Shown one piece after another: positions 43,858 to 62,332 of a DNA stretch of 64,000 nt. The stretch spans positions 1-64,000 of the forward strand of contig NZ_BIXY01000034.1 of the NCBI RefSeq assembly GCF_008326305.1. Direction: 5' to 3'. The stretch is from Dictyobacter arantiisoli (GTDB lineage: Bacteria; Chloroflexota; Ktedonobacteria; Ktedonobacterales; Ktedonobacteraceae). The translations under genes were made by a program, and so were the position numbers. The notes under the pieces are model-generated. The model saw nothing but the letters and a program-made list of their open reading frames with translations, searched no databases and was not told the origin of the DNA. The first letter of the stretch is position 1; each line of letters starts with the position of its first letter.

Positions 43858-43972
43858 TGGTTTATCGATGAAACTTGACAAAGTGAGTAAACAATCTCTC
43901 TAATAGTATCTTTCTCTACCTCTATCATACCATTACTGAGCCCTTTCCCATTGGCCTGTCCTTCCTGGAATG

Positions 43973-44105
43973 TGTCAGACTCCTCTATCATTCAAAACTT
44001 TACGCATGAATTTTTGCACCTGAGGTGCTCAAAAATGTTTTAACATGCAATGCAGGCGCGTGAGCACCTTCCTACAAGTGGGTAGGAAGATCTCAGAGTG
44101 TGTCG
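43973..44105 (+). repeat. Palindromic dispersed repeat, copy A1 (short stem)
   Basis: GTGTCAGACTCC ... GCATGAATTTTTGCACCTGA and GGTGCTCAAAAATG, then a short ATGTT-tt-AACAT stem and GCAGGCGCGTGAGCACC. It runs directly into copy A2. Shared blocks with A2 and with the copy at 56.8 kb show it is the same element with a nearly absent central stem. Confidence 0.6.
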
Positions 44106-44300
44106 GACTCCCATGCTCTCCACCATCTCTGTGCATGAGTTTTCGCACCTGCGGTGCTCAAACAGATTTTTATTATGTGATGTAGAAAAGGTTCTTCGAA
44201 CCTTTTCTACATCACATAATAAAAAGGGTGCAGGCGCGCAAGCGCCTGCCAGCAGGTGAGCAGCAAGATCCCGCTGCTATTGGGGGGCTGACACTCTCTC
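44099..44300 (+). repeat. Palindromic dispersed repeat, copy A2 (28-bp perfect stem)
   Basis: Left module: GTGTCGGACTCCCATGCTCT, GCATGAGTTTTCGCACC, GGTGCTCAAACA. Centre: a perfect 28-bp stem (44167-44194 with 44198-44225) and a three-base TTC loop. Right module: GGGTGCAGGCGCGCAAGCGC, GTGAGCAGCAAGATCCCGCT. The same modules in the same order occur inverted at 56.8-57.0 kb, but the stem sequence there is entirely different. Confidence 0.8.
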
Positions 44301-44430
44301 ATAGAGAGATTGGGAATCAGCGCGTTGTCGAGACGCATATCCTCAGAGATGGATCAGCTTAAGATTAGATAAGCGCTATTCCAAATTGATTAGATTATGC
44401 TGAGAATGCCGATAAACAGAACGATCAGGC

Positions 44431-56767: not shown

Positions 56768-56796
56768 TCAATCTGCTCTAATAAAGTTTTTGATTC

Positions 56797-56992
56797 CCAC
56801 TCCCAGCGGGATCTTGCTGCTCACTGGCTGGCTGGCGCATGCGCGCCTGCACCCTTTTTATTGTATATTGCTGTAAATGTTCATATCACATTTACAGCAA
56901 TATACAATAAAAAGATGTTTGAGCGCCATTAGGGCGAAAATTCATGCGCAGAGATCGTGAAGAGCATAGGAGTCAGACACTCTGTAGCCGGG
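56797..56992 (-). repeat. Palindromic dispersed repeat, copy B (26-bp perfect stem)
   Basis: Read on the minus strand it shows AGAGTGTCTGACTCCTATGC, GCATGAATTTTCGCCC, GCGCTCAAACATC, a stem of 26 perfect base pairs (56855-56880 with 56888-56913, seven-base loop), then GGGTGCAGGCGCGCATGCGC and GTGAGCAGCAAGATCCCGCT. The flanks align with copy A2 at 44.1 kb, while the stem has no similarity to that of A2 beyond the TTTTTATT start. Confidence 0.8.
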
Positions 56993-62029: not shown

Positions 62030-62040
62030 GATCATTTAAG

Positions 62041-62115
62041 AATGTCTCGGACTTCCAGTTCCATCGGGATCTTGCGACTAACTTGTAGGGGTGGAGAGCA
62101 TGGAAGTCCGAGACA
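62041..62115 (-). repeat. Palindromic dispersed repeat, copy C (stemless)
   Basis: The minus strand reads AGAGTGTCTCGGACTTCCAT, GCTCTCCAC and GCAAGATCCCG, the outer blocks of copies A2 and B with the middle missing. In addition GTCTCGGACTTCCA and its inverse bracket this 70-bp piece, so it can fold on itself. Confidence 0.55.
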
Positions 62116-62332
62116 CTCTAAGGGTGCAACCCTTAACCTGGGTCCGGGGCTGCGCCCCCATAGGTGCGAACGTAAGCGGGATTGTTAAGGGTGCAACCCT
62201 TAACCTGGGGTTCGGGGCTGTGCCCCGATCTCTCACCTCCCTCTCGCCGCCGCACGCGGTGGCAGAAAGTGGCAAAAACTATATATTATGGAATGCCAGG
62301 GCATTCGCCCTGAGCGTTCCATAATATATAGT
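62116..62332. repeat. GC-rich intergenic repeat, copy 3, with an AT-rich 16-bp hairpin
   Basis: GGGTGCAACCCTTAACCTGG plus a CGGGGCTG.GCCCC segment occurs twice (about 62122-62160 and 62187-62226). Then CTCGCCGCCGCA and GCAGAAAGTGGC resemble the end of copy 1 at 12.75 kb. At 62278-62293 and 62317-62332 ACTATATATTATGGAA and its perfect inverse form a long hairpin with an inner CAGGGC/GCCCTG stem. This fills the gap before coaBC. Confidence 0.6.

Follow-up and report, generated by a model that had tools for sequence, protein, structure and literature searches.

The window, that is, the whole 64-kb stretch of DNA analyzed here, contains a nonautonomous MITE-like transposon whose central hairpin has, very probably, had its arms repeatedly rewritten from each other, template switching during replication being the best-fitting cause. 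Orthologous copies in related species show substitutions and indels that are paired between the arms, as well as inverted loops, and the paired changes accumulate at a near-neutral rate. The arm-from-arm copying process suspected in an earlier note on this DNA is thus well supported; strand switching in replication is what we infer to be its cause.

Results

Anatomy and distribution of the repeat

The earlier note had described conserved flank blocks in two copies, A2 and B, and both the blocks and their order are indeed present there (Table 1). The perfect stems of these two copies, 28 bp with a 3-nt loop in A2 and 27 bp (rather than the 26 first counted) with a 7-nt loop in B, are longer than any other perfect inverted repeat in the window; as described, A1 has only a tiny stem and copy C none. 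The flanks recur well beyond the window: in its own genome (G000; 7.2 Mb, 256 contigs), where copies were collected genome-wide, the 3' block (≤3 mismatches) matches 155 places, against 0 for a reversed control pattern, and 109 oriented copies cover the stem. The genes beside the window copies are ordinary (an Rrf2 regulator, a response regulator and histidine kinase, a BrkB-like protein, an FHA-ABC transporter, and a CoaBC-type flavoprotein).

Table 1. Positions of the repeat copies and their parts in the window
Feature	Position	Strand	Evidence or comment
Copy A2, full-length MITE-like element	44096..44298	+	3' block in 155 genome places; ends fixed by 3-bp duplication
A2 left target-site duplication, TCA	44093..44095	.	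sequence; register tested on 79 copies
A2 right target-site duplication, TCA	44299..44301	.	sequence; register tested on 79 copies
A2 left terminal inverted repeat, GAGTGTGTCGGACTCCC	44096..44112	+	sequence
A2 right terminal inverted repeat, reverse complement GAGAGTGTCAGCCCCCC	44282..44298	-	sequence
A2 small hairpin block HP1, TTTTCGCACCTGCGGTGCTCAA	44140..44161	+	also found in other genera
A2 central perfect hairpin HP2	44167..44225	+	arms 44167-44194 and 44198-44225, loop TTC 44195-44197; paired variation
A2 GC-rich hairpin HP3, GCAGGCGCGCAAGCGCCTGC	44230..44249	+	
Copy A1, partial and decayed, immediately upstream of A2	43972..44090 (end approximate)	+	matches B query 5-75 at 75%
Copy B, full-length element	56783..56984	-	ends diverged; target duplication unrecognizable
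Copy B perfect hairpin	56854..56914	-	arms 56854-56880 and 56888-56914, 7-nt loop
Copy C, 79-bp deletion derivative	62040..62118	-	both ends kept, without long hairpin
Copy C TAA duplication	62037-62039 and 62119-62121		flanks copy C

The element is a MITE-like transposon of ~203 bp, present in well over 100 copies; its ends are terminal inverted repeats, and the duplicated target is 3 bp long and mostly TNA. Its consensus comprises, in order, an inverted end, HP1 (TTTTCGCACCTGCGGTGCTCAA), the long stem HP2, the GC-rich hairpin HP3, and the other end, and full-length copies carry the terminal inverted repeats (GAGTGTGTC../CAAAGTGTT..) at both ends. Of 79 copies, 51 show a duplication of the three bases beside their ends, compared with 0 to 3 in shifted registers, and a TNA target is found in 54 of the 79 on one side and in 57 on the other. 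All but one of 84 full copies lie outside long ORFs, and within tandem gene pairs the copies show no preferred orientation (18 versus 16). Inverted ends, a 3-bp TNA duplication, a short noncoding sequence in high copy number, and placement almost always outside long ORFs together constitute the anatomy of a MITE. The earlier statement that this is not an ordinary MITE therefore fails as regards anatomy and holds as regards the stem; the process that shapes the stem also affects hairpins that are not part of the element.

Tandem copies spaced by ~200 bp and with common duplicated 3 bases occur at G000:C33:44102-44610, G000:C148:134-563, G000:C96:28400-28898, and window 43972-44298, and the element appears to insert beside its own ends. 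Copy C is adjoined by another hairpin, at window positions 62278-62332 and upstream of the coaBC-like gene, whose arms (ACTATATATTATGGAATGC / GCGTTCCATAATATATAGT) are 95% complementary around a 17-nt spacer. Also beside copy C, an 84% complementary inverted pair (62119-62137 / 62184-62202; TAAGGGTGCAACCCTTAAC) apparently represents another small repeat family, and the text AAGGGTGCAACCCTTAACCTGGG occurs nearby as a direct repeat.

Search for a mobilizing enzyme

We interpret the element as a nonautonomous DNA transposon that enters TNA-type sites and duplicates 3 bp. A TNA target with a duplication of this length is what IS1031-group elements, within the IS5 family, produce (PMC12016507), and the mobilizer is probably an IS5/IS1031-type transposase acting in trans. 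We infer this assignment, since the search turned up no transposase bounded by such ends: the ~1 Mb read contained no autonomous element with matching ends and TNA duplication, only neighboring pairs of MITE copies, and matching ends were absent among the PF01609/PF13340 loci. IS5-type transposases were considered as a source, and the loci examined share no ends with the element.

A linked reverse transcriptase or Y1 transposase, which the earlier note had proposed to look for, was searched for and none was found. HP1 is absent from the Y1 loci scanned, and G020, a genome of a related genus (g8), has no match to PF01797, the Y1 transposase model, yet holds 186 HP1 places. A second g8 genome, G023, has 42 PF01797 matches compared with 0 in G020, each genome holding nearly 200 HP1 places. 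In a third, G025, one copy (L278, around 1501) resembles a REP doublet, with HP1 to the left of the stem and inverted HP1 to the right.

Covariation within a single genome

The stems had been called completely different and unrelated in sequence, which we did not find. The A2 stem TTTTTATTATGTGATGTAGAAAAGGT and the B stem TTTTTATTGTATATTGCTGTAAATGT, read from the same end, align gap-free with 18 identities in 26 positions, and the exact A2 stem is found in 16 copies of G000. In this genome, 92 copies carry 55 variants of a single stem, which differ by paired changes. One common stem with point mutations had been named as the result that would speak against the earlier reading; a single stem family does exist, but its differences come in pairs.

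The 97 G000 copies with comparable stems contain 2,586 Watson-Crick pairs, 12 G-T, 7 A-C, and 14 other combinations. Among 22 variants chosen for diversity, so that the counts refer to variants rather than independent events, 94 changes are both-sided and 0 one-sided (616 cells), with 17 of 28 pairs varying on both sides; the covariation signal is gone when the partner is slid by 1 to 3 columns. Furthermore, the same stem occurs with its loop either way round (GAA in 10 copies and TTC in 6; TAT in 4 and ATA in 3) while the flanking bases are unmoved, although part of this may reflect misassembly of 28-bp palindromes in the 256 contigs. The G000 comparison involves paralogs only, and the ortholog test was made in g8.

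Orthologous hairpins in related genomes

Other genomes of the genus carry the element with more diverged but still perfect stems. In g8, the genomes G020, G023, and G025 each have 186 to 260 HP1 places, many of them followed by perfect stems of 25 to 36 bp that are widely different between loci. G020 and G023 have many insertions in common, with closely similar flanks (~96% identical), which makes a direct ortholog test possible. We compared 27 ortholog pairs with intact stems; 8 others were excluded for want of an unbroken long stem in one or both genomes, and some of them are chance HP1 matches within genes.

The 683 aligned inner pairs hold 22 paired and 12 unpaired changes, where 0.3 paired and 48 unpaired would be expected if the arms mutated independently at the rate of the flanks (0.0363 per site; 566/15,595); these counts are undirected, and 3 of the 22 (L334/L359) come from a paired shift and are better read as indels. 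Paired changes thus amount to 0.032 per pair (95% interval, 0.020-0.048) versus ~0.036 per flank site, and transversions make up similar shares of the paired changes (6/22) and of the flank changes (167/566). Some indels are present in both arms simultaneously (L267/L259 and L328/L360). The loop is inverted in 12 ortholog pairs, not inverted in 14, and tied in 1 (12/26 inverted; for example, AGA/TCT, TTT/AAA, and AAAT/ATTT), so that in a simple two-state model loop inversion is at least ~10 times as fast as substitution per site (lower 95% bound of 12/26). The 12 unpaired changes and several broken stems indicate that rewriting is not instantaneous. An empty-site comparison of G020 with G023 yielded no clean empty site and one internal deletion.

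Two explanations in which whole stems are replaced were weighed against these data. Capture of new, unrelated stems, also raised in the earlier note, would accord with the g8 stems behind HP1, which look unrelated between many loci, and with the orthologs L285/L265, which differ strongly. We nevertheless judge it extremely improbable: the stems within the window's own genome are homologous and form one alignable family, so that capture is unneeded there, and most g8 orthologs retain a recognizable stem. Ectopic gene conversion, by which whole stems would be swapped for those of other repeat copies, seems to us very improbable as well. It could draw on the stem types that G000 copies have in common and on the shuffling of ends and stems among them, but in g8 the stems are locus-specific and orthologs still differ by single paired changes (L258/L365, L273/L289, and L318/L369).

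Paired changes and selection on RNA

Covariation in a stem is the usual proof of a functional RNA structure. If the hairpin were transcribed, selection on RNA pairing could keep the stem perfect through compensatory mutations, in agreement with the very strong covariation and with a fold far better than that of shuffled sequences (z = -10.9), although any perfect hairpin would give the latter. Selection on RNA should also leave G-U steps, slow the change of the stem, and keep loops in one orientation; since all of these predictions fail, we disfavor it. None of the 616 cells holds a one-sided G-U state, G-T mismatches show no excess over A-C mismatches (12 versus 7 and 6 versus 4), the stem changes at the flank rate, and loops are inverted. 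In addition, some orthologs have broken stems and the copies show no orientation bias relative to genes. No Rfam family matches at the gathering threshold, and below it only eukaryotic microRNA models appear, which match any long hairpin. The structured-RNA family envisaged earlier is therefore distinctly improbable, and our data point to a mutational cause of the covariation, namely the rewriting of one arm from the other.

Hairpins outside the repeat

Perfect hairpins with arms of at least 18 bp occur at ~22 per 100 kb in 20-kb windows of G020 and G023 (L313-L345 and L346-L372), whereas 143 kb of sequence from other phyla contained no such hairpin; the figure is a rough one, given that the windows were picked to contain HP1 and that the control is small. 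About two thirds of these long hairpins lack HP1. The HP1-less hairpins lie at a median of 6 to 9 bp from a stop codon and are overrepresented between convergent genes (70/152, versus 101/577 background gaps) and underrepresented between divergent genes, which together suggests that they are terminators. They also show paired arm changes, and their loops are inverted in 13 cases, the same in 9, and tied in 4. As hairpins without HP1 behave like those of the element, rewriting is not specific to it, in agreement with a survey of 118,019 genomes in which long inverted repeats had symmetric indels and, between conserved arms, an excess of substitutions in the spacers (PMC13155455).

We tentatively suggest, as a possibility that we hold to be somewhat doubtful, that an unusually active genome-wide process of arm rewriting and loop flipping in this bacterial family maintains perfect pairing in perhaps two thousand long hairpins per genome (an extrapolation from ~22 per 100 kb), apparent terminators included, and that covariation there arises from mutation and not from RNA selection. 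Of note, the SbcD model TIGR00619 has no match over its curated cutoff in 10 genomes (G000 and nine relatives), with weak partial matches in all of them, and 6 of 14 control genomes are likewise without a match. Loss of SbcD might be a reason why long hairpins are tolerated.

Discussion

Our current working model is that HP2 is one inherited stem in which either arm may be repeatedly rewritten from the other. A mutation in one arm would be either copied to the partner arm or erased, such that stems drift neutrally and remain perfect, and the loop would flip orientation during rewriting. Under unbiased and fast rewriting, a mutation is as likely to be copied as to be erased, which accounts for a paired rate per pair equal to the substitution rate per site. 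Template switching in replication at inverted repeats would best fit this behavior, the switch step itself being deduced from its products. Its published marks between inverted repeats are arm homogenization and spacer inversion (PMC8604942, PMC8794818), and we favor it since homogenized arms and inverted spacers are seen together here.

These two marks could also be the products of separate processes. Cruciform mismatch repair accounts for homogenized arms and not for inverted spacers, and the reverse holds for crossover. Reciprocal recombination or a site-specific inversion might thus flip the hairpin while cruciform mismatch repair separately equalizes the arms, and both loop inversions and equal arms are indeed observed. 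We consider this combination improbable, since it requires two mechanisms where one is enough, since arms of 25 to 36 bp with unrelated sequences speak against a site-specific enzyme, and since hairpins without common flanks behave alike.

We regard the repeat family as new, no description of it having been found in the limited library of literature searched. A scan with the 3' block of a public genome collection, which may omit the window's own genome and its near relatives, returned only single chance matches in other phyla. The kinds involved, MITEs and template-switch homogenization, are already known; the novelty lies in the family and in the natural experiment that it offers, a large natural set of hairpins with near-perfect covariation at about the neutral rate, accompanied by loop inversion. 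This set may serve as a yardstick, with a paired rate per pair close to the flank rate per site and loop inversion at least ~10 times as fast as substitution (lower 95% bound), and it carries a warning for bacterial RNA discovery, in that covariation may arise without RNA selection.

Among known systems, the bacterial MITEs mobilized by IS1031-group transposases (IS5 family) are likewise short, noncoding, and present in many copies, with ~17-bp inverted ends, a TNA target, and a 3-bp duplication (PMC12016507); the present element differs in that no transposase with matching ends was found for it and in its long perfect internal hairpin that changes in pairs. REPINs and BIMEs are also extragenic palindromic repeats of high copy number that form tandem clusters, but they are inverted REP doublets tied to RAYT transposases (PMC3116915), whereas our element has inverted transposon ends and a target duplication and shows no link to a Y1 transposase. 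The survey of perfect inverted repeats cited above (PMC13155455) reported the same symmetric arm indels, variable spacers between conserved arms, and enrichment behind stop codons; it does not treat the repeat family, and its text does not mention Chloroflexota. In chloroplast genomes, small hairpin-loop inversions are reported in which the orientation of a loop flanked by inverted arms changes from one species to a related one; those described there lie in plastid spacers, whereas here dispersed bacterial repeats show paired arm changes in addition. Finally, quasipalindrome correction by template switching, in yeast (PMC8604942) and in RNA genes (PMC8794818), leaves the same identical arms, inverted spacers, and several bases changed together, to which the present family adds hundreds of dispersed bacterial copies with orthologs and rates that can be compared with those of neutral flanks.
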